Shown: positions 22,296 through 53,981 of the stretch, in pieces
Layout of the letters: every line of letters starts with the position of its first letter
Numbering within the stretch: position 1 is the first letter of the stretch
NCBI RefSeq assembly: GCF_000015825.1
Contig: NC_009051.1
Location: 2,350,695 to 2,414,694 of the forward strand
DNA: 64,000 nt
From: Methanoculleus marisnigri JR1
GTDB taxonomy: Archaea > Halobacteriota > Methanomicrobia > Methanomicrobiales > Methanoculleaceae
Direction: 5' to 3'
Program-made: the position numbers and the translations under genes
Notes under the pieces: generated by a model
Databases searched by the model: none
Told to the model about the DNA's origin: nothing
What the model saw: the letters and a program-made list of their open reading frames with translations, nothing else

Positions 22296-23444
22296 TCAGG
22301 AGCCGGAGTACCGGCGGGCATATATGACCTCTAAATCCGCACAGATCCTCTCCCAGTTGAACTTCTCGGACACGAGGCTCCTGCAATTCTCGCGGAACTG
22401 CGACGTCCGCACATCTTGGCTCAGTATACGTGCCATGGCTTCGCTCACTTCAGTCACAGAATACGCCGTCGAGAACCCCGCGACGCCATCGATCCAATCC
22501 AGGTAGTCTCCCGCATTGGTCGTGACGATCGGGAGCCCGCAGGCGCACGACTCCGCAAACGTTATCGGAAACCCGTAGAATTTGGGCGTCACGAAGACGT
22601 CGCTGTCAATGAACGCCGCATACTTCTCCCGCTCCGGCACAAGCCCGGTAAACCGGACCTTCTCTTCGATACCCAGGTCGGTGATCTGTCTCTGCAGATC
22701 AGACTCGAACCCGCCATCGGGCCCAACGAGCACAAGCCGTGCGTCCTCTATACGCGGCGCCAGATCTGCGAACGCCTCGACGAGGAGGTCAATCCCCTTG
22801 CTCTTATGCAGTCGCCCCAGGTAAAGGACGACCTTCGCATCGGGTTCGATCCCGTACTTCCGCCGGAACTCACCCCGACCGGGTAAGTCCTTGAACCGCT
22901 CCAAGTCGACCCCGTTCGGCAGCACGTGAACCTTCTCCCCGGCAACCCCGAGCCGCCGGTGCGCGTCGGCCTCGCTCTGCGAGAGCGCGATGAAGGCCGA
23001 AGCGCTCGCAAGCAGCCTGCTCCCCCACACCTGGTCGTAGAGCCACTTGATCCCCTTCCGTTCCACAATCCGCATGATCGACCCGTGCGCCTGGAGGACG
23101 ATAGGAACGTCGTTCTTGGTGGCCTGGCTCATGACCACGGAGTTCTGGTAAGAGCGCGCCCCGTTCAGATGCACGACGTCGTATTCGCCGATATGCGTTC
23201 TGCACCAAGCCTTCAGGCTGGGAGAGGGGATGTAAAGGCAGTAGTTGAAGAGGTGCTCGAACGGGATGACCTCGACACCGATCTCCTTGATCGTCGCCGC
23301 GTAGTCCGCATCGAAGAGGTAGTCGGTCGTCGCAATTGTCACATCGTGCCCGCGCAGGGCGAGGTGCTTGGAGAGGTTGTAGGCTACGTCGACGCCACCA
23401 CCGAGGCTCGGGTTGAATCGTGGAATGACCTGCAGTACCTTCAT
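22296..23444 (-). CDS. GT4 family glycosyltransferase
   Basis: A 382-residue GT-B glycosyltransferase. It starts with the donor/acceptor motif MKVLQVIPRFNPSLGGG and has the C-terminal family-4 core. That core includes VVLYLGRLHKSKGIDLL and the catalytic E-x7-E region (ESCACGLPIVTT). It transfers a sugar from a nucleotide donor to a lipid-linked acceptor at the cytoplasmic face. The ATG two codons into the open frame (23444) is the natural start. The pyruvyl transferase gene upstream in the same direction ends 9 bp away, so the two are co-transcribed. Confidence 0.9.
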   Translation of the reverse strand: MKVLQVIPRFNPSLGGGVDVAYNLSKHLALRGHDVTIATTDYLFDADYAATIKEIGVEVIPFEHLFNYCLYIPSPSLKAWCRTHIGEYDVVHLNGARSYQNSVVMSQATKNDVPIVLQAHGSIMRIVERKGIKWLYDQVWGSRLLASASAFIALSQSEADAHRRLGVAGEKVHVLPNGVDLERFKDLPGRGEFRRKYGIEPDAKVVLYLGRLHKSKGIDLLVEAFADLAPRIEDARLVLVGPDGGFESDLQRQITDLGIEEKVRFTGLVPEREKYAAFIDSDVFVTPKFYGFPITFAESCACGLPIVTTNAGDYLDWIDGVAGFSTAYSVTEVSEAMARILSQDVRTSQFRENCRSLVSEKFNWERICADLEVIYARRYSGS

Positions 23445-23453
23445 GACCAAGAC

Positions 23454-24641
23454 CTACCCAATCAACTCGGCAACGAGCCTCGCGTTGAGGAGAGTTCTCT
23501 CGCGGAGTACCTCTGCTGCCTGCCGTTGTTTCGCCGCATAGAGCGCTCTGTTCTCCCAGACCGTCTCGAAGTTCTTGCAGAACTGTCCAGCAAAGGTCTC
23601 GGTACCCAGATCCTCGACATCAAGGTAGAAGCCCTCAAGGCCGACCAACTCCAGATAACTCTTCACCTTACCGCAGTAGGAGATCGGGACGACTGGCACC
23701 CCCATCATGGTGGCGAGGATCAGCGAGTGGAGGCGCATCCCCACCAGGACATCGGCACGGGACAGCGCCGCGAAGACCGCGGTGAAGTGGGGGTTGTACT
23801 CCAAGACATCTGCCTTTTCCGACGAGGGCATGAGGTCCCGGATGGCCGCATAGCCTTCGCGGTCCACCTTTACCGTCGGGACGAGCAGCATCCTCTGATC
23901 GTGTTCGCGGACAATGGACTCGAAGATCCCGGCCAAACTCTCTCTCCGATCCCGAAGATCCTGTGCTGCCTCAACCGCGTTCCGGGAGAGATCTGAATCG
24001 TGCAGCCAGTTGTAGGCAGTACTCGCGATGTAACGGTCGCCGTTGGTTATGTTCAGTGACGTGAGATAGGTGCCGATCACCGTCGGATCGGGCACCTCGA
24101 TCCCGAACGCCGGGTCCGCGGTGCGGATGACGTCCCGGACGCCGCATCTTTCGAGAACCTCCTTCGACATCGAGTCGCGGACGGTCACGAGGTCGGCCTC
24201 GTTCAGGATGGAACTGCACAACTTCCGGCCGAGGTGGGTATCGATGGGGCCTGCACCGATGCCATAGATAACCGTCTTCTTCCCGTATCTCTGCGCCAGT
24301 CTGACGAGGGAGAGGAGGGCGGGAAGATAGTAGACCCTTAAGTCCTGCAGAAGGGAGCCCCCGCCGAGGATGAATATATCGCAGTTTCTGATCTCCCGCT
24401 GGATGGCCGCAAGCTCCCCTTCGAGGATCGTCCTTCCGATGAACCTCAGAACTCCCTTCTTGAAGGACTGCCGCACGGGCCTGACGTTGTGCAGCGTCCG
24501 GGTCTCCTCCAAGTTGTTTGTTATGACCGAGACGTGCGGATCGTCGATGTACTTCCTCAACGAGGTCACCATCCCGGCGAGTATCGCTTCGTCACCGATA
24601 TTGCCGAGCCCATAGTAGCCCGCTATGAGAACATTCGTCAT
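23454..24641 (-). CDS. Polysaccharide pyruvyl transferase (CsaB-like)
   Basis: A 395-residue protein of the polysaccharide pyruvyl transferase family. The diagnostic N-terminal GYYGLGNIGDEAIL is at about residues 6-19, and the GGGSLLQD motif near 95. The C-terminal half has the MRLHSLILATMMGVPVVPISY block. Such enzymes attach ketal-linked pyruvate to cell-wall or exopolysaccharide sugars, giving negative charges that can hold S-layer-type proteins. The ATG at 24641 has GAGAGGG 6 nt before it. Neighbouring glycosyltransferases supply the sugar chain. Confidence 0.9.
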   Translation of the reverse strand: MTNVLIAGYYGLGNIGDEAILAGMVTSLRKYIDDPHVSVITNNLEETRTLHNVRPVRQSFKKGVLRFIGRTILEGELAAIQREIRNCDIFILGGGSLLQDLRVYYLPALLSLVRLAQRYGKKTVIYGIGAGPIDTHLGRKLCSSILNEADLVTVRDSMSKEVLERCGVRDVIRTADPAFGIEVPDPTVIGTYLTSLNITNGDRYIASTAYNWLHDSDLSRNAVEAAQDLRDRRESLAGIFESIVREHDQRMLLVPTVKVDREGYAAIRDLMPSSEKADVLEYNPHFTAVFAALSRADVLVGMRLHSLILATMMGVPVVPISYCGKVKSYLELVGLEGFYLDVEDLGTETFAGQFCKNFETVWENRALYAAKQRQAAEVLRERTLLNARLVAELIG

Positions 24642-24662
24642 CGTCATCCCTCTCAACAGCCC

Positions 24663-26135
24663 TCATACGCTCCGAATCGCCTGGCGCTTCTCTGCACCGA
24701 GGTATTCGAGGAACACTTTTGCAGACATGAGCATGATCTTCAATTCGTGAAGACCATGCCTCCGCAAGATGTTGCTCAACGCGACGGGCACGAACGATGG
24801 GTTTAGATAGTACTCTTTGAGCGCCCTGTTGACGTAGTGCTCGATATCGACCTTGGTGAAATCAGGATACGAAAGGATGCATTTCTGGTAACCACTCTGA
24901 TCAATACTCTCCTCAAGGTTGTCAACCAGCAGGTACCCATTCTCTTTGGCCCAGTCGTAGAACTTCGTTCCAGGTATCGGGGTTGCCACAGCCACCTGAA
25001 GAATATTTGGCTTTAGTTCTCTGATGAACTTAAGCGTCTGCTCTGCGGTCTCGTTTGTCTCACCGGGAAGGCCGATAATGAAGTCACCATGAATCATCAA
25101 CTTGGCTCTCTTTGCATCCCTGGTGAACGCTCTCATCTGCTGGGTACCCACACCCTTCCTGATGGTCTTCAGGATCTCATCATTCCCAGACTCATACCCC
25201 ACGATCAAGAGCCTGCAACCGGCGCTCTTCATCTCTTGCAATGTTGAGTAATCAAGGGTAGCCCGGGCATTGCAGGACCAGGTAATATCTAGTTTTCGTT
25301 CTTTTATTTTCCTGCAAACATCGAGAACCAGATTTTTGTTTATGGTATACGTATCGTCCTCGATGAAGATCTCTTTGACTTCCGGAAGATTCTGACAGAT
25401 ATATTCGAACTCGTCAACGATGTTGTCAGCTGTTCTTGAGCGGTATTTCCTCCCCATCAAATTCTCAGGCCAAGAACAGAACGTACAGTGAAACGGGCAC
25501 CCTCTCCCCGTGAAGATCTGGACTTCCGGGTAGAGAGTCTGGCTCAAATAGTAATCCTTGATGTTCAGGTGCCTCTTATAGACAGACGATACAAAGGGTA
25601 TCCGGTCAAGATCCTCGGAAGTAGTGTACTCTCTGATGGGGTTGTGAGCGATCTGCCCGTTCTCTTTATACGAGATGCCGTGAACGTTCTTTAGTGGCAG
25701 ACCCCGCCCCACAGCTCTGGCAACATCAAGCAACGTAAAATCATATTCATAGAGAGCAAGGATATCTACCCCCCCATTGCCAAGGATCTTCTCCGGGAAC
25801 CGTGCTGTCGGGGGACCGACCATAACTGTCGTTGCACCGCACGCTTCCTTGAGTTTCTGCGTAACGCCGATGTCATTTCCAAGGCTGGAAAAGTTTGTCT
25901 CAACGACGACCAGATCAGGCTGAAACTGCTTCACATCGTTGATAATATCGGCTGTGTGTAACTGACTCGCTGGTGCATCGACCAGTTTTACCGCGTGCTC
26001 CGTCTCCAGTAACCCGGTTGCATATGCAAGCCACTTCGGATAATCAAGGCCGCCACTGCGGGCTGCAGCACCCTGCCATCTGCCGCACCGGACAAAATTT
26101 TCAACGAACGGTGGATTGAGCATGTATATTTTCAT
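24663..26135 (-). CDS. B12-binding domain radical SAM protein
   Basis: A 490-residue radical SAM enzyme with an N-terminal cobalamin-binding-like domain (about 1-140) and the Fe-S motif C213-x3-C217-x2-C220 (CPFHCTFC). The downstream IFIEDDTYTINK and GDFIIGLPGETNE segments are typical of this subgroup, which includes HpnJ-like proteins. Such proteins modify lipids or sugars by methyl transfer or carbon rearrangement. In this locus a sugar or lipid-carrier modification is likely. No classic B12 base-off DxHxxG motif is obvious. GGGGTG precedes the ATG at 26135. Confidence 0.88.
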   Translation of the reverse strand: MKIYMLNPPFVENFVRCGRWQGAAARSGGLDYPKWLAYATGLLETEHAVKLVDAPASQLHTADIINDVKQFQPDLVVVETNFSSLGNDIGVTQKLKEACGATTVMVGPPTARFPEKILGNGGVDILALYEYDFTLLDVARAVGRGLPLKNVHGISYKENGQIAHNPIREYTTSEDLDRIPFVSSVYKRHLNIKDYYLSQTLYPEVQIFTGRGCPFHCTFCSWPENLMGRKYRSRTADNIVDEFEYICQNLPEVKEIFIEDDTYTINKNLVLDVCRKIKERKLDITWSCNARATLDYSTLQEMKSAGCRLLIVGYESGNDEILKTIRKGVGTQQMRAFTRDAKRAKLMIHGDFIIGLPGETNETAEQTLKFIRELKPNILQVAVATPIPGTKFYDWAKENGYLLVDNLEESIDQSGYQKCILSYPDFTKVDIEHYVNRALKEYYLNPSFVPVALSNILRRHGLHELKIMLMSAKVFLEYLGAEKRQAIRSV

Positions 26136-26137
26136 AA

Positions 26138-27325
26138 CTAGCACCCCGCTTTAATCAAAATACGATCTAATTTCTTTGCGATGGCGGCCCACTGATACTC
26201 ATCCGCGACGATGCGGCTACCCTCTGCTCCCAACCTGCTACATAACTTGGGGTCCTGATACAGTTCCATGATCCCCTGTACATACTCGTTGACATCGGAG
26301 ACAAACCGAACCGTCTGACCGAAGCCTTTCTCGATAGCATCTACGTGAGTGGAAATGACCGGTATGCCGCACGCCATGTATTCAAACAATTTCAGGGGGA
26401 GTGAGTTGTTTGAAACGTTATCCTGTTTGAACGGAATCACGCCCACATTCATACACGATATGTATTCAGGTACCTGAGAGTACGGAACCGTGCCGGTGAA
26501 GACAGTATGTTCCTGTATCCCCAGGTCTCTTGCCATCTCGACAGTTTTATCATAACCTGCGCCTCCACCGACAATAAGTAACTTGACATTGCTCTTCGAG
26601 GCTAACTCTCTGATCGCAATGAAAAGCGGCTCCAGATCCAGCCACTCTCTGAGGACACCAACATGACCAACAACGAATGAATCTTCAAGGCCGTATTTCT
26701 CTTTGATATGGCCACAAGGCCGGGGCGAAAATAATTCGATATCAACTCCGTTCGGTAGCAGCTCCCACTTCTCGCACGGAATGTCATAGGTTTGGCAGAG
26801 TGATTCCGTTGTTATCGTGACTCTCTCTGAAGTACGGATACTCCAGTTCAGGATCGCTTTCCCGACCCAGCCGCAAGTAGACCTCATAAATGAGGGAATT
26901 TGGGGAGACGTCCGGACCATTTCCGGCAGATCGTCAGCGATGTCGTATACCGTCGGGATTCCGCGGGAGTGGGTAGATCTTCCAACTGCATACCCAGAAA
27001 CCATGCCATTGTAATTGAAATGCACATCGTAGTCCGATATCCCGATCTTATCAAGGGTGCCTCCCACAGTTGCAACCGATAGAGCTTCCTGGACGACCGG
27101 GCTTACCTGCCTATCGGTTAGGTAAAAAAGATCGATGTTCTCAAAGAGATCCTTAAAGCTCTGATTGTAGTTTTCTGCCGTCCGGTCCCACCTGGCTTTC
27201 CAGCAGTCGTTTACACTTAAGACGGAAATGTCATGATCGCGTGAAAGGTACTTCAAAAACTGGTGGAGCCTGCTGTTATGGACAGAGTTTTTAAGATCGA
27301 TGATCGATGAAACCAGGATTTTCAT
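26138..27325 (-). CDS. GT4 family glycosyltransferase
   Basis: A 395-residue GT-B glycosyltransferase. The acceptor-side domain is N-terminal, with LLPNGVDIELFSP at the hinge. The C-terminal nucleotide-binding core has VGHVGVLREWLDLEPL and the catalytic Glu motif KLFEYMACGIPVIST. It is one of two GT4 enzymes in the locus and shares an apparent transcript with the radical SAM gene, 2 bp downstream. Its AT-richer composition contrasts with wecB upstream. The transferred sugar is unknown. Confidence 0.9.
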   Translation of the reverse strand: MKILVSSIIDLKNSVHNSRLHQFLKYLSRDHDISVLSVNDCWKARWDRTAENYNQSFKDLFENIDLFYLTDRQVSPVVQEALSVATVGGTLDKIGISDYDVHFNYNGMVSGYAVGRSTHSRGIPTVYDIADDLPEMVRTSPQIPSFMRSTCGWVGKAILNWSIRTSERVTITTESLCQTYDIPCEKWELLPNGVDIELFSPRPCGHIKEKYGLEDSFVVGHVGVLREWLDLEPLFIAIRELASKSNVKLLIVGGGAGYDKTVEMARDLGIQEHTVFTGTVPYSQVPEYISCMNVGVIPFKQDNVSNNSLPLKLFEYMACGIPVISTHVDAIEKGFGQTVRFVSDVNEYVQGIMELYQDPKLCSRLGAEGSRIVADEYQWAAIAKKLDRILIKAGC

Positions 27326-49423: not shown

Positions 49424-49788
49424 CTACGTCACGATGAACGCCCCGTGCATCGCAGGATGGACGTCACACCGGAAGAAGTAGTTTCCCGGGGTCTCGGGCG
49501 CCGTGAGGGTGTAGGTGGCGCGGGTGGGGCCCATGACGATCTCGCCGACGAAGATCGCATCGCTTGCTGAGGAGTCCGTGTAGACCGCGACGTTGTGCGG
49601 AACCCCGTCATCCCGGTTGTCGAACTCGATCGTCACCTCCGCGCCTGCGGGGACCGTTATTGTCTCCGTACTGAAGCCGAAGTTCTCGGCCGCGATTGCG
49701 ACGGTCACCCTCGCGACGACGCGGGCCGCTTCCGGGGTCACGCCCGCACCCCCGTACCGGACGCCATGACTACGGTTATTCGTGCCAT
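49424..49788 (-). pseudogene. decayed partial copy of the cupredoxin-fusion gene
   Basis: The first codons from the ATG at 49788 read MARITVVMAS, matching MTRVTAVMIS at the start of the neighbouring sugar dehydrogenase gene; the bases upstream of the two ATGs also match. The frame then meets a TGA at codon 17. In a shifted frame the sequence continues as an intact cupredoxin domain (FGFSTETITVPAGAEVTIEF ... YFFRCDVHPAMHG) very like the C-terminal domain of that neighbour. The hydrophobic signal core, the dehydrogenase and the linker are missing. This is best read as a duplicated gene with a large internal deletion and a frameshift. A cytoplasmic 105-residue product from a GTG at 49741 cannot be excluded. 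Confidence 0.7.
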
Positions 49789-49892: not shown

Positions 49893-51944
49893 CTACTCAA
49901 CAACGAACTCTCCGTCCATCGGGGGATGGACGTCGCACCGGAAGTAGTAGGTTCCGGACTCCTCCGGCGCCGTGAAGGTGTAGGTCACCTGGCCCGGGCC
50001 GTCGATGATCTCGCCGACGAAGATCTCCTCGGCCACGGAAGAGTCCGTGTAGACCGCGACGTTGTGCGGGATGCCGGTATCCTGGTTATCGAAGACCATC
50101 GTCACGTTCGCCCCCGCCGGGACGGTGATGGTGGACGTGTTGAAGGCAAAGGCTTCGGCCACAACCCCCACGGTCACGTTCCCGGCCGCGGCCGGCGTAA
50201 CGTTTCCAGTCGGGATTGCGGTCACGTTCGTGGTCACGGCAGGTGTCGTGGTCACGTTCGCAGTCGGAACCGCCGTAACGTTTTCAGTCGGCGTTACGGT
50301 CACATTCCCGGTCACGGTCGGCGTTGCAGTCATATCCGCACCCGGAACCATCGTCACGTTCGCCGTCGGAGTCGGCGTCTCCGTCACGTTCGCCGGGACG
50401 ATCTTCCAGACCGTCCCGGTCGCATTGGCGGCGTCCGGGCCCGCGTCTTTGGACGTGAGCGCGTAGAGTTCCGACTCTCCATCCTCACCGAATCCCAGGA
50501 GGTAGGCGTCCAGGGTTCCCGCGGGCGTCCCGGTCACGTTGAGCCTCTGCAGGCTCCACATCGCGACGTCTTCGGGAGTGAGGTTCTCCGCGGAGTCCGG
50601 GAACGCCGATGCGTTCCACCCCGCCGGGGGTGTCGCGACGAGCAGGGTGGCGTTCCCGACGCCGAAGCCGGTGCTCCAGTAGCCGAAGATGTAGCGTCCC
50701 ATAAGATCCGGGAGCGCCGTGCCGTTGTAGACCCGGCCGCCGACGAAGACGACACCCAGGTCATGCCCGCCCTCGATGACGGGGCCGATCAGGGGTTCGC
50801 CGGAGGAGCCGTTTGCCGGGCAGGTCGCCGGGGGCGTTTGGGGGTTTTCCGGATCGAAGCAGTGGGTTCCCTCCCGGAGGCGCCACCCGTAGTTGCCGCC
50901 GTTCACCACAAGCGAGACTTCCTCAAAGAGATTCTGGCCGGCATCCCCCACAAAGAGGTTGCCTTCGGCGTCGAACGTGATGTACGCCGGGTTCCGGAGA
51001 CCGTAGGCGTAGATCTCGGGCGGGATGCTTTCGTTCGCGACGAACGGGTTGTCCGCCGGGATTCCGTAGAGGGGACCCGCCGCCGTCGTCCGGGTGGCGT
51101 TCTCCAGCGGCTCCGTCACGTTCCTGGCGGTGACGTTGTCCACGTCGATCCGGAGCACGCTGCCGTAGATCTTCGTCAGGTCCTGGGCGTTCCCGATCTC
51201 CGGGGTGTGGCCGGTGCCGTTGTCGTTCGCCGCGCCCCCGTCCCCGAGCGGCACGTAGAGGTAGCCGTCACGCGGGCCGAAGGCGATGCTCCCGCCGTTG
51301 TGGGTGGACTGCGGTTTGTCGATCTCCATTAAGATCTTCTCCGAGGTCGCGTTGACCTGGTCGGGGTTTGCGGGGTCGACCTTGAACTCGGAGAGGCGGT
51401 TCGTGCAGTCCCAGTCATCAGGCGCCTCCTCGCGGAGGGGCGTGCTGTAGAATGCAAATACCCGCCCGTTCTCCCCAAAGTCGGGGTGGAAGGCGATCGA
51501 GAGGAGCCCGCGCTCGTCGAACGACGGGGTGAGGTTGACCATCCGGTCGCGGACGTCGAGGAACGGTTCCTTGATGAGTGTGCCGTTCTCGTCGATGATC
51601 GAGACCGTCCCGACCTGGTCGACGACAAAGAGCCTGCCCGTGCCGTCGCCGGCATCCGTGAGCATCAGCGGCGCGACGAGGCCTTCGGCTACGAGTTCGA
51701 GACTCACGTTAATCGTCTCGTTCTCCCCGGCAAATCGGGTGAACGAGGTGTTGTTCAGGAGTTCCGCCGCGTACGCCGACCCGGCGTTCGTCAGGTTTCC
51801 GGCAAAGGCCGTTATATCCTCTTCTTCGGGAGCGGAAGTCTGCGTGAGGCCGGTTCCACCGTCCGGGTACACCCCGGCCCCGGCAACGCCTGCCAGGGCA
51901 AGGAGCACGAGGACGGATATCATGACTGCAGTTACTCGTGTCAT
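49893..51944 (-). CDS. PQQ-type soluble sugar dehydrogenase fused to a cupredoxin
   Basis: A 683-residue exported protein. A signal peptide (1-23) is followed by a six-bladed beta-propeller of the soluble aldose/sorbosone dehydrogenase family, about 60-500. Typical features are GLLSIAFHPDF, the HNGGSIAFGP segment and YVPLGDGG. Next is a linker of about 80 residues built from TPT/NVT repeats rich in N-glycosylation sequons. A plastocyanin-like cupredoxin closes the protein (about 590-683) with Cu ligands in VPHNVAVY and YYFRCDVHPPM. The fusion suggests oxidation of a sugar with electrons passed to the copper domain. Whether PQQ is available in this organism is unknown. Confidence 0.87.
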   Translation of the reverse strand: MTRVTAVMISVLVLLALAGVAGAGVYPDGGTGLTQTSAPEEEDITAFAGNLTNAGSAYAAELLNNTSFTRFAGENETINVSLELVAEGLVAPLMLTDAGDGTGRLFVVDQVGTVSIIDENGTLIKEPFLDVRDRMVNLTPSFDERGLLSIAFHPDFGENGRVFAFYSTPLREEAPDDWDCTNRLSEFKVDPANPDQVNATSEKILMEIDKPQSTHNGGSIAFGPRDGYLYVPLGDGGAANDNGTGHTPEIGNAQDLTKIYGSVLRIDVDNVTARNVTEPLENATRTTAAGPLYGIPADNPFVANESIPPEIYAYGLRNPAYITFDAEGNLFVGDAGQNLFEEVSLVVNGGNYGWRLREGTHCFDPENPQTPPATCPANGSSGEPLIGPVIEGGHDLGVVFVGGRVYNGTALPDLMGRYIFGYWSTGFGVGNATLLVATPPAGWNASAFPDSAENLTPEDVAMWSLQRLNVTGTPAGTLDAYLLGFGEDGESELYALTSKDAGPDAANATGTVWKIVPANVTETPTPTANVTMVPGADMTATPTVTGNVTVTPTENVTAVPTANVTTTPAVTTNVTAIPTGNVTPAAAGNVTVGVVAEAFAFNTSTITVPAGANVTMVFDNQDTGIPHNVAVYTDSSVAEEIFVGEIIDGPGQVTYTFTAPEESGTYYFRCDVHPPMDGEFVVE

Positions 51945-51977: not shown

Positions 51978-53981
51978 TTACCCTCCCCGTTCGTATATCC
52001 TGACACCCCCCTCGTCGTAGATGAGACGAAGCTCCCGGTCCGGCAGCCGGACGTCGTAGCGCTCGTGCTCGGGCTCGCCGACGTAGAGGAGGGTCGCGTT
52101 GTACTTCTCCATCAGCGCGACGGTCTCCTCCGGATTCTCATAGATCGCCCGAATATCAGCCGGACGCTCCGTGTACCAGGCGCCGTTTCCCCGCCACGTC
52201 AGTTCGTGGCCGATCTGCCCGAGAATCGTCGGGATGCCGGAAAAAGACGAGACCCTCGAGTAGTAGCCGTAGTCGCCGTTCTCCGCCTCGACGATCCGGT
52301 GATCGCCGTCGAGCGTCCGGAGGAAGTCGATCGCCGCGGCTTCACCCGGCCGCGTGGCCTCGAGGTAGGCAAGCCCGTCCAGAGTGGTGTAGCCCGCCGG
52401 GGGGTAGTCGATCCCGAGGAGGCCCCGGCCGATATCGACGTCGAGAGCGAACGGGGCGACGATGAGGGCGACGGCTGCGGCGACGGCAAGCCACCGCCCC
52501 GCCGGGAGGGCCGGCCGCCGTCCTGCAAGCCACTTCCCGGCGAGGAGGAGGGAGCCCGTGCCGAGAAGGATCCAGGCGTCGAAGTAGAACTTGAAGATGG
52601 TGTTGAACCGGCTGTAGTCGCCCCCGAGCATCTCCTCAAGGTAGAAGACCTCGCAGAAGATGAGCACCGAAAGACCGGCGATACAGAGGAGGTCCGGGAA
52701 CGCGTGACGCCTCCGCAGGAGAAGGTAGGCGAGCGGCACCAGGAGAATCGCGAGCGCGGCGTAGCCGGCGACGAGGGGCGGGACGGCGACGGCGAGCGCC
52801 ACCGGAAATCGCCGGATATCCCGGACGACGGCTGCGTAGACGATTGCGAGGAACCCGCCCCAGACCGCGAGGAAGGCGAGCGGGTCGGTGGGAGGAAGGC
52901 CCCACCCGATCCCGCCGATACCCGCGGGTTCGAGGTACAGGTAGTAGGGGAGATAGATGAGGAAGGCGACCGCGGGGACCACGGCGGCGGCGACGAGGGG
53001 GGAGCGGTCGCGGAGAGAGAGCACGAGGAGGAAGGCGGCGACGATGGGGCCGTAGACGAGGGCGTCCCAGGAGGAGAGGAGCGGCATCGAGCCGATGGAG
53101 AGGGCCAGGAGAAGGGCGAGGGTCCCACGCGCCCGAAGATCGAGCCCGCCCCACCGGCACCATGCAAACCCGAGGAGGAGGAGAAGGAAGGCCTGGTTGA
53201 ACACGGCCATCTCGAAGGCGTGGACGTTCCCGAGAAGGAGTGAGAAGGCCGGAAACTCGAACCGGGCGCCGGCAATGATCCAGTTGGCGTCCTGCAACGC
53301 GTTATAGAGGTCGGCGCCCGCGGCGAGGAACCAGACGACCGACGGCGGGACGAGGAGGAGGGGCGCGAGGGGGAGCCACCGCCACCGCGAAAGAAGGAGA
53401 TGCCCGAGGGCATAGAGCGCGACAAACGACGTCCCGTAGACCGTGGCCGGGATGAGGTTGAAGGCCACCTCCGACGGTATGGCGGTGACGATTGCAAGGC
53501 AGCCCATCAGCCAGTGCCCGAGGTAGTAGTAGACCGTAAGGTGCCCGCCTGCAAACCAGGGATCGAGCGGCGGCACCACGGGCTCCCGGATGACGCTCGC
53601 GAGGAAGGCGTGGTTCATGTACTGCTCGCTGAAGTAGCCGATGGGCGGGTTTACGAACCGGACCGCAAGCGCAAATAAAAAGCCGACAAGGAAGACCGCG
53701 TCCCAGAAAAGGAGGCTCCGAAGCTCCCCTAACCGGTAATCGCCCCGCTGGATGCCGTATACGGCGAGACCAACGAAGAGGAGGAGGGCGAGGGCGACCG
53801 GGACGCGGAGGAGGCCGCAGTACCAGGTCGCGAGGGCGAAGAGGAGGAGGGAGGCCGGGTAGGCCGCCGGGTAGGCATGGTCCCCGAGTGCCGGGCGGAG
53901 CCGGGGCCAGAGGGCGAGCTGGAGGCCTTTGAGGAGGGCGGCCCAGAGGAGCACGTCGTACGCCTGCAGGATGAGTTCCAC
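51978..53981 (-). CDS. DUF2298 (Chlor_Arch_YYY-type) membrane protein
   Basis: A 667-residue protein with about 14-16 spans and a C-terminal soluble domain of about 130 residues. The LTVYYYLGHWLMG motif near residues 149-161 is the YYY signature of the family, found mainly in Archaea and Chloroflexi. The layout, with an acidic loop and C-terminal external domain, resembles GT-C glycosyltransferases. A role in protein or lipid glycosylation is plausible but unproven. It is 33 bp upstream of the sugar dehydrogenase gene on the same strand, so both may be co-transcribed. Confidence 0.88.
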   Translation of the reverse strand: MELILQAYDVLLWAALLKGLQLALWPRLRPALGDHAYPAAYPASLLLFALATWYCGLLRVPVALALLLFVGLAVYGIQRGDYRLGELRSLLFWDAVFLVGFLFALAVRFVNPPIGYFSEQYMNHAFLASVIREPVVPPLDPWFAGGHLTVYYYLGHWLMGCLAIVTAIPSEVAFNLIPATVYGTSFVALYALGHLLLSRWRWLPLAPLLLVPPSVVWFLAAGADLYNALQDANWIIAGARFEFPAFSLLLGNVHAFEMAVFNQAFLLLLLGFAWCRWGGLDLRARGTLALLLALSIGSMPLLSSWDALVYGPIVAAFLLVLSLRDRSPLVAAAVVPAVAFLIYLPYYLYLEPAGIGGIGWGLPPTDPLAFLAVWGGFLAIVYAAVVRDIRRFPVALAVAVPPLVAGYAALAILLVPLAYLLLRRRHAFPDLLCIAGLSVLIFCEVFYLEEMLGGDYSRFNTIFKFYFDAWILLGTGSLLLAGKWLAGRRPALPAGRWLAVAAAVALIVAPFALDVDIGRGLLGIDYPPAGYTTLDGLAYLEATRPGEAAAIDFLRTLDGDHRIVEAENGDYGYYSRVSSFSGIPTILGQIGHELTWRGNGAWYTERPADIRAIYENPEETVALMEKYNATLLYVGEPEHERYDVRLPDRELRLIYDEGGVRIYERGG

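Follow-up and report, generated by a model that had tools for sequence, protein, structure and literature searches.

The window analysed here is a stretch of 64,000 nucleotides from Methanoculleus marisnigri JR1 (contig NC_009051.1, forward-strand positions 2,350,695 to 2,414,694). Among its genes is one uninterrupted reverse-strand frame encoding 683 aa, P0001, which starts with ATG and is preceded by a purine-rich stretch that looks by eye like a ribosome-binding site. The features of the locus are collected in Table 1. In Pfam searches, the GSDH family PF07995 matches the first domain of P0001 (E 1.9e-30, 106.8 bits against a cut-off of 25), while Cupredoxin_1 (2.1e-8) and Copper-bind (4.9e-8) both match the C-terminal domain above cut-off. 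An AlphaFold2 model computed from 81 sequences has a mean pLDDT of 81, mostly above 90 in the propeller. In this model the propeller and the cupredoxin are both confident and lie cleanly apart, and residues 1–74 and 522–586 fall below 50.

Table 1. Features of the P0001 locus (window coordinates)
Feature	Position	Strand	Basis or remark
P0001 gene, 683-aa GSDH propeller–cupredoxin fusion	49893..51944	-	ORF, Pfam, AlphaFold2 model, dN/dS
Probable Sec signal peptide, residues ~1–27	51864..51944	-	Sequence read by eye
Six-bladed propeller, residues 79–521 (PF07995; HHIP/Asd fold)	50382..51710	-	Pfam, profile, model, structure comparison
Disordered TPT/NVT linker, residues 522–586, sequon-rich	50187..50381	-	pLDDT <50, sequon count
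Cupredoxin domain, residues 587–683	49896..50186	-	Ligands H627, C670, H673, M676; Pfam, model, alignments
His215 codon, equivalent of sGDH catalytic His144	51300..51302	-	hhalign to E. coli YliI; H in 108/108
Arg317-Asn318 codons, equivalent of sGDH Arg228-Asn229	50991..50996	-	hhalign to YliI; R 108/108, N 107/108
DUF2298 (chlor_Arch_YYY) membrane protein, probable operon partner	51978..53981	-	33 nt upstream of P0001, same direction
Second, signal-less cupredoxin (105 codons, starting at GTG)	49424..49741	-	Remnant of tandem copy, propeller lost
16-codon ORF resembling the start of P0001	49738..49788	-	Ends in GTGA overlap with second cupredoxin

The initial annotation of this gene had described a secreted protein in which a six-bladed sugar dehydrogenase domain, a linker full of N-glycosylation sites and a plastocyanin-like copper domain are joined. 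The single frame, the Pfam matches and the model agree with this description, and structure comparison of the propeller with HHIP, Asd and sGDH (introduced below) gives VIA Z scores of 33–42. The hydrophobic N-terminal stretch reads by eye as a Sec signal peptide, in line with secretion. The linker contains 6 N-X-S/T sequons in 64 residues against 1.8 ± 1.1 expected, and the whole protein contains 30 against 6.3 ± 2.3 (shuffle maximum 14), the expectations being drawn from 2000 composition-preserving shuffles. The TPT/NVT linker is not peculiar to P0001 because other surface proteins of the M. marisnigri genome carry such linkers. Comparison with three close species indicates purifying selection on both domains, with dN/dS of ~0.21–0.27 for the propeller and 0.20–0.33 for the cupredoxin. 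The architecture is real, conserved, and recurrent in related microbes.

The pairing of the DUF2298 gene with the fusion gene is kept in 14 of the 14 clade A genomes with loci examined, a count that leaves out four loci (L068–L071) possibly from the same genomes. A UbiA prenyltransferase gene lies on the other side in most loci of clade A, to which P0001 belongs. As an idea only, the DUF2298 protein is possibly a glycosyltransferase acting on the sequon-rich P0001. Elsewhere in the window, the reverse-strand interval 22296–27325 is a lower-GC stretch (~52–58%) of surface-polysaccharide genes, comprising two glycosyltransferases, a pyruvyl transferase and a radical SAM protein. Downstream of P0001, the arrangement of 16-codon remnant, GTGA overlap and signal-less cupredoxin is common to four species, and in two other genomes (G028 and G120) the second tandem copy retains its propeller. 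The dN/dS of the second cupredoxin is 0.13–0.21 in the six pairs of the four species, which opposes its classification as a dead pseudogene. The initial annotation makes no mention of this second cupredoxin ORF, which directly follows P0001.

The closest match to the propeller in the PDB is Hedgehog-interacting protein (HHIP). A phmmer search of PDB sequences returns HHIP first (~4e-38), followed by the aldose sugar dehydrogenases (Asd) and the soluble glucose dehydrogenase sGDH at 1e-12 or weaker. A profile of 23 sequences gives the same first hit at 6e-60, followed by 3a9g (5e-20), sGDH (1e-19) and 2g8s (4e-17). In structure comparison, the P0001 propeller superposes on HHIP with a VIA Z of 41.6 (354 aligned residues, 2.8 Å, 32% identity), and the corresponding scores are 35.5–38.8 for Asd, 32.4–33.6 for sGDH and ~27 for the fungal AA12 family. 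Foldseek matches to NosZ, which also combines a propeller with a cupredoxin, were set aside as evidence (rmsd ~25 Å). Fold alone does not separate an enzyme from a binder, because HHIP, Asd and sGDH all fit the propeller with close Z scores.

HHIP (PDB 7pgm, 2wft, 3ho4) shares with P0001 the six-bladed fold, the DERGLL sequence and the blade His motif. HHIP is not known to carry a cupredoxin or to have a redox role. Its nearness raises the possibility that the P0001 propeller is no enzyme and, as is possible for HHIP-type domains, binds foreign glycans or those of the surface, with the cupredoxin as a structural or copper-holding module. The PDB titles of HHIP-C structures with heparin and a glycosaminoglycan mimic, the relatives fused to CBM6/35 and fasciclin domains, and the sequon-rich linker of a type found in other surface proteins are consistent with such a role, as is the gap between the profile scores of HHIP and the best PQQ enzyme. 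On the other hand, the PQQ enzymes fit the propeller only ~3 Z units below HHIP. While HHIP keeps the His, it has a degenerate His-Asp at the place of Arg317-Asn318, yet P0001 retains Arg-Asn, and so do 107–108 of 108 prokaryotic propellers. That propellers are joined again and again to a copper site complete for electron transfer also argues against a pure binder, and we consider this reading rather unlikely, though still a serious rival.

The initial annotation had proposed a PQQ-type enzyme, and the residues of the cofactor site bear on this proposal in both directions. The equivalences between P0001 and sGDH are alignment-based (hhalign through E. coli YliI, an Asd). The catalytic His and the Arg-Asn pair (Arg228-Asn229 in sGDH) are retained as His215 and Arg317-Asn318. 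The aldose sugar dehydrogenases (E. coli YliI 2g8s, Pyrobaculum 3a9g, Streptomyces 3das) share the fold and these three residues with P0001. The same holds for Acinetobacter sGDH (1c9u; Z ~33), with His144, Arg228 and Asn229. In contrast, P0001 lacks the carboxylate-clamp Lys/Arg of the aldose sugar dehydrogenases and has extra family motifs and a fused copper domain. Relative to sGDH, the positions of K377, R406 and R408, which clamp the PQQ carboxylates, are occupied in P0001 by S424, Y481 and L483, in a region where the alignment is weaker than in the N-terminal blades. P0001 may still bind Ca, because its G336-Q337, which aligns with the Ca-site GP, has a counterpart in 3das, solved with PQQ and also GQ at this site.

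The pattern extends to the family. Among 108 propellers, a set from which short, partial and duplicate matches were first dropped and in which the fusion state of L119 and L140 was labelled from Pfam, none has Lys at the position of 424. Arg occurs at the position of 483 in 35 of 108, and Leu in 15 of 15 clade A rows including P0001. An association of Arg483 with cupredoxin fusion was considered and rejected, since none appears in independent pairs. E144, R145, W354, E358 and W463 are each present in 108/108; the invariance of E144-R145 is partly imposed by the retrieval patterns (YDERGLL), and both residues also occur in 37 propellers gathered without these patterns. The NCBIfam model TIGR03606 scores P0001 at 63.2 bits, below its cut-off of 434.55.

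Among the genes for PQQ synthesis, PqqC is likewise scarce in the genomes searched. PqqC (TIGR02111) has no match in 150 genomes of the order, a search with no control match of its own. Among 41 genomes of wider relatives, reached via 41 of 80 wider loci, one (G159) matches above cut-off and one further match is weak. Since G159 was matched above cut-off, the PqqC search is able to detect the gene; the propeller family mostly lives without PqqC. PqqE (TIGR02109) gives no match above cut-off, and its sub-cut-off matches occur in 150/150 genomes and also in 14/14 controls. With the clamp gone and nearly all searched genomes without PqqC, the PQQ name is doubtful, and in its usual sense it is probably misleading for this subgroup. 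Canonical PQQ binding by P0001 is unlikely on these alignments. The proposal of a PQQ enzyme is therefore not upheld, and the accompanying suggestion of another ligand for the propeller gains support.

PQQ can be scavenged, so that a genuine PQQ enzyme could take its cofactor from the surroundings and bind it in an altered way, as fungal AA12 does. The retained His and Arg-Asn and the GQ at the Ca site shared with PQQ-bound 3das fit this reading. The AA12 enzymes are reported to hold PQQ through residues that differ in part from those of sGDH and do not include its Lys377 (PMC6881789, PMC4133262). Absence of PQQ-contacting residues had been named as an argument against a PQQ enzyme, and it applies only in part: the clamp is missing, whereas H215, R317 and N318 are kept and AA12 manages with partly different residues. 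The concurrent loss of K377, R406 and R408, the lack of Lys at the K377 position throughout the 108 propellers and the scarcity of PqqC make scavenged PQQ improbable. The AA12 pyranose dehydrogenase CcPDH resembles P0001 in another respect, as it is described as a six-bladed propeller fused to an electron-transfer domain, which carries heme b in CcPDH and copper in P0001 (PMC6881789). CcPDH is farther from P0001 than the other enzymes, has its own PQQ residues and is compared here at the level of the fold.

The cupredoxin domain retains the complete type-1 copper set (H627, C670, H673 and M676), and thus the plastocyanin-like character given to it holds, with no ligand lost. In the order-wide cupredoxin alignment, H627 is found in 32/32 sequences and C670, H673 and M676 in 31/32 each. 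The ligands align with those of plastocyanin and with the PHN and C-x2-H-x2-M motifs of amicyanin. P0001 shares the fold and all four ligands with amicyanin/plastocyanin-type cupredoxins, and the C-x2-H-x2-M spacing with amicyanin, but is archaeal and tethered to a propeller. In the M. marisnigri genome, only P0001 and its downstream copy match Copper-bind above cut-off. Proteins of the same Pfam family, PF07995, are present in ammonia-oxidising Thaumarchaeota, where they have been proposed as PQQ enzymes and cupredoxins are named among the proposed acceptors; the part of this source available describes no fusion (PMC6657660).

The initial annotation had called copper proteins and PQQ enzymes unexpected in a strict anaerobe. 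This surprise is tempered by the distribution of the two domains, as the P0001 query matches somewhere in 68 of 150 genomes of the order and 21 of 35 genera, many of the matches being cupredoxin-only. The M. marisnigri genome (a single contig of 2,478,101 bp) holds the fusion, the adjoining second cupredoxin, small fragments and a propeller-only paralogue (1108395–1109612, 55% identity over the match). In a wider pattern search of contigs, at least 550 of at least 592 matches encode relatives, of which 80 were retained; among the matches listed are Methanothrix, Methanoperedens, a haloarchaeon, Chloroflexota, Verrucomicrobiota, Planctomycetota, Bacteroidota and others.

The same fusion had been suggested for a search in other archaea, and it does recur, at both ends of the propeller and in several lineages. 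A C-terminal cupredoxin is present in 19 of the 108 propellers and an N-terminal one in 9, and the other 80 have none in the same ORF. The minimum number of changes of fusion state on a quick tree is 12, of which the C-terminal label accounts for 7 and the N-terminal label for 5; this count does not distinguish gains from losses, and many deep forks are weak. Within one Methanoculleus clade, the fused form and the split-adjacent form make up separate groups; several Methanoculleus encode propeller and cupredoxin side by side in different genes, or have a fasciclin domain in the cupredoxin's place. One family member carries CBM6/35, and one Methanoperedens relative has added CxxCH motifs with a weak cytochrome c match. 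Two Methanoperedens loci (L086:2063-7885 and L105:4153-8781) encode proteins of 1542–1940 aa that combine a cupredoxin, a GSDH propeller, surface domains and CxxCH motifs. The literature searched, from which subscription papers were excluded, contained no description of a propeller–cupredoxin fusion in Methanoculleus.

A second clade in other Methanoculleus consists of propellers ~56–61% identical that are clustered with cupredoxins. These paralogue clusters vary in their parts and include an eight-bladed propeller of the PF01011 type to which the same cupredoxin is fused (L038:2450-4768, L045:2432-4939), a Prismane/CODH protein, and AhbA/AhbB and AhbC/D-like genes. The alignment of the L038 PF01011 propeller has Pro in place of the Asp of the conserved GDN motif (RPGPNLY) and lacks the Cys pair, which suggests a non-canonical quinoprotein. 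Cytochrome bd I-like proteins accompany the paralogue in four Methanoculleus genomes (G092, G124, G142, G145), and a search of the M. marisnigri genome for the cytochrome-bd-like protein gives no match. The clusters at L048:8086-15422 (G092) and L054 (G145) hold a siroheme decarboxylase, AhbC/D-like radical SAM proteins, cupredoxins, two cytochrome bd I-like proteins of PF01654 and a GSDH propeller, and could possibly form a heme-copper oxygen-reducing module in a methanogen. The radical SAM genes beside the paralogue clusters are PqqE-like, and their assignment to PQQ synthesis was rejected. In the three genes scanned, AhbC, AhbD and NirJ outscore PqqE, with all these matches below cut-off, and L048 and L054 each contribute one of two neighbouring genes identified above cut-off as AhbA and AhbB, so heme synthesis is likelier than PQQ synthesis. 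A short cupredoxin fragment (L037:14787-14891, at position 1186786 of the M. marisnigri genome) lies at the site that the paralogue cluster seems to occupy in relatives, which suggests that the cluster has been lost in the M. marisnigri strain.

The paralogue loci could also point to copper or oxygen defence, in which the copper domain would quench oxidants or hold Cu and the propeller would supply electrons or an anchor. The cytochrome bd I-like pair, the heme-synthesis genes and the Prismane/CODH protein adjoining these loci in relatives are what suggests it. The redox cluster, however, belongs to the paralogue and is represented in the M. marisnigri genome by a cupredoxin fragment only, and P0001 is located elsewhere, with DUF2298; for P0001 we regard defence as very improbable. 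The paralogue cluster supports a redox setting for the family, as evidence about the paralogue rather than about P0001.

With the gene structure, fold, linker, copper ligands, invariant His/Arg/Asn set and recurrent fusion computed for P0001, an electron-transfer reading is plausible. Our best reading, held tentatively and with slightly less than even confidence, is a secreted oxidoreductase-like propeller that passes electrons to its own copper domain. P0001 would be a secreted, probably N-glycosylated two-domain protein. Its GSDH propeller, of the HHIP-like subfamily, would either act on or redox-sense some extracellular substrate, for which a carbohydrate is the likeliest candidate. The tethered blue-copper domain would carry single electrons from the propeller to an acceptor outside the membrane. 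This supposes a propeller that works as a redox enzyme on a sugar, a loaded copper site and the passage of electrons between the domains; the propeller cofactor may be a scavenged quinone held in another way, or there may be none. The complete copper ligands and the strict retention of H215 and R317 (108/108) and N318 (107/108), where HHIP has His-Asp, speak for an oxidoreductase, together with the recurrent cupredoxin fusion, the CxxCH relative, the CBM6/35 member and the redox genes of the paralogue clusters. Against it stand the best PDB match, which is a non-enzyme, the absent clamp, the 80 of 108 propellers without a fused cupredoxin, the lack of an acceptor found in the organism's own genome, and the split or fasciclin-partnered domains in several Methanoculleus. 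We know of no activity for the HHIP-like propeller subfamily.

We place P0001 within a known superfamily; its cofactor site is altered and a copper partner is fused to it. The usual label for proteins of its group is PQQ-dependent sugar dehydrogenase, which the missing PQQ clamp makes probably misleading here; even so, these propellers strictly retain the catalytic half-site and are repeatedly joined to copper carriers. At stake is the enzymatic or non-enzymatic nature of a large family that spans archaea, bacteria and, more remotely, animal HHIP, and also the question of extracellular copper electron transfer in some methanogens. In the widest version, which we consider quite unlikely, the widespread prokaryotic HHIP-like propellers would be oxidoreductases that keep the His/Arg/Asn half-site without canonical PQQ and are wired to fused copper domains, methanogens would have an extracytoplasmic copper electron chain, and animal HHIP would be derived from such an enzyme.
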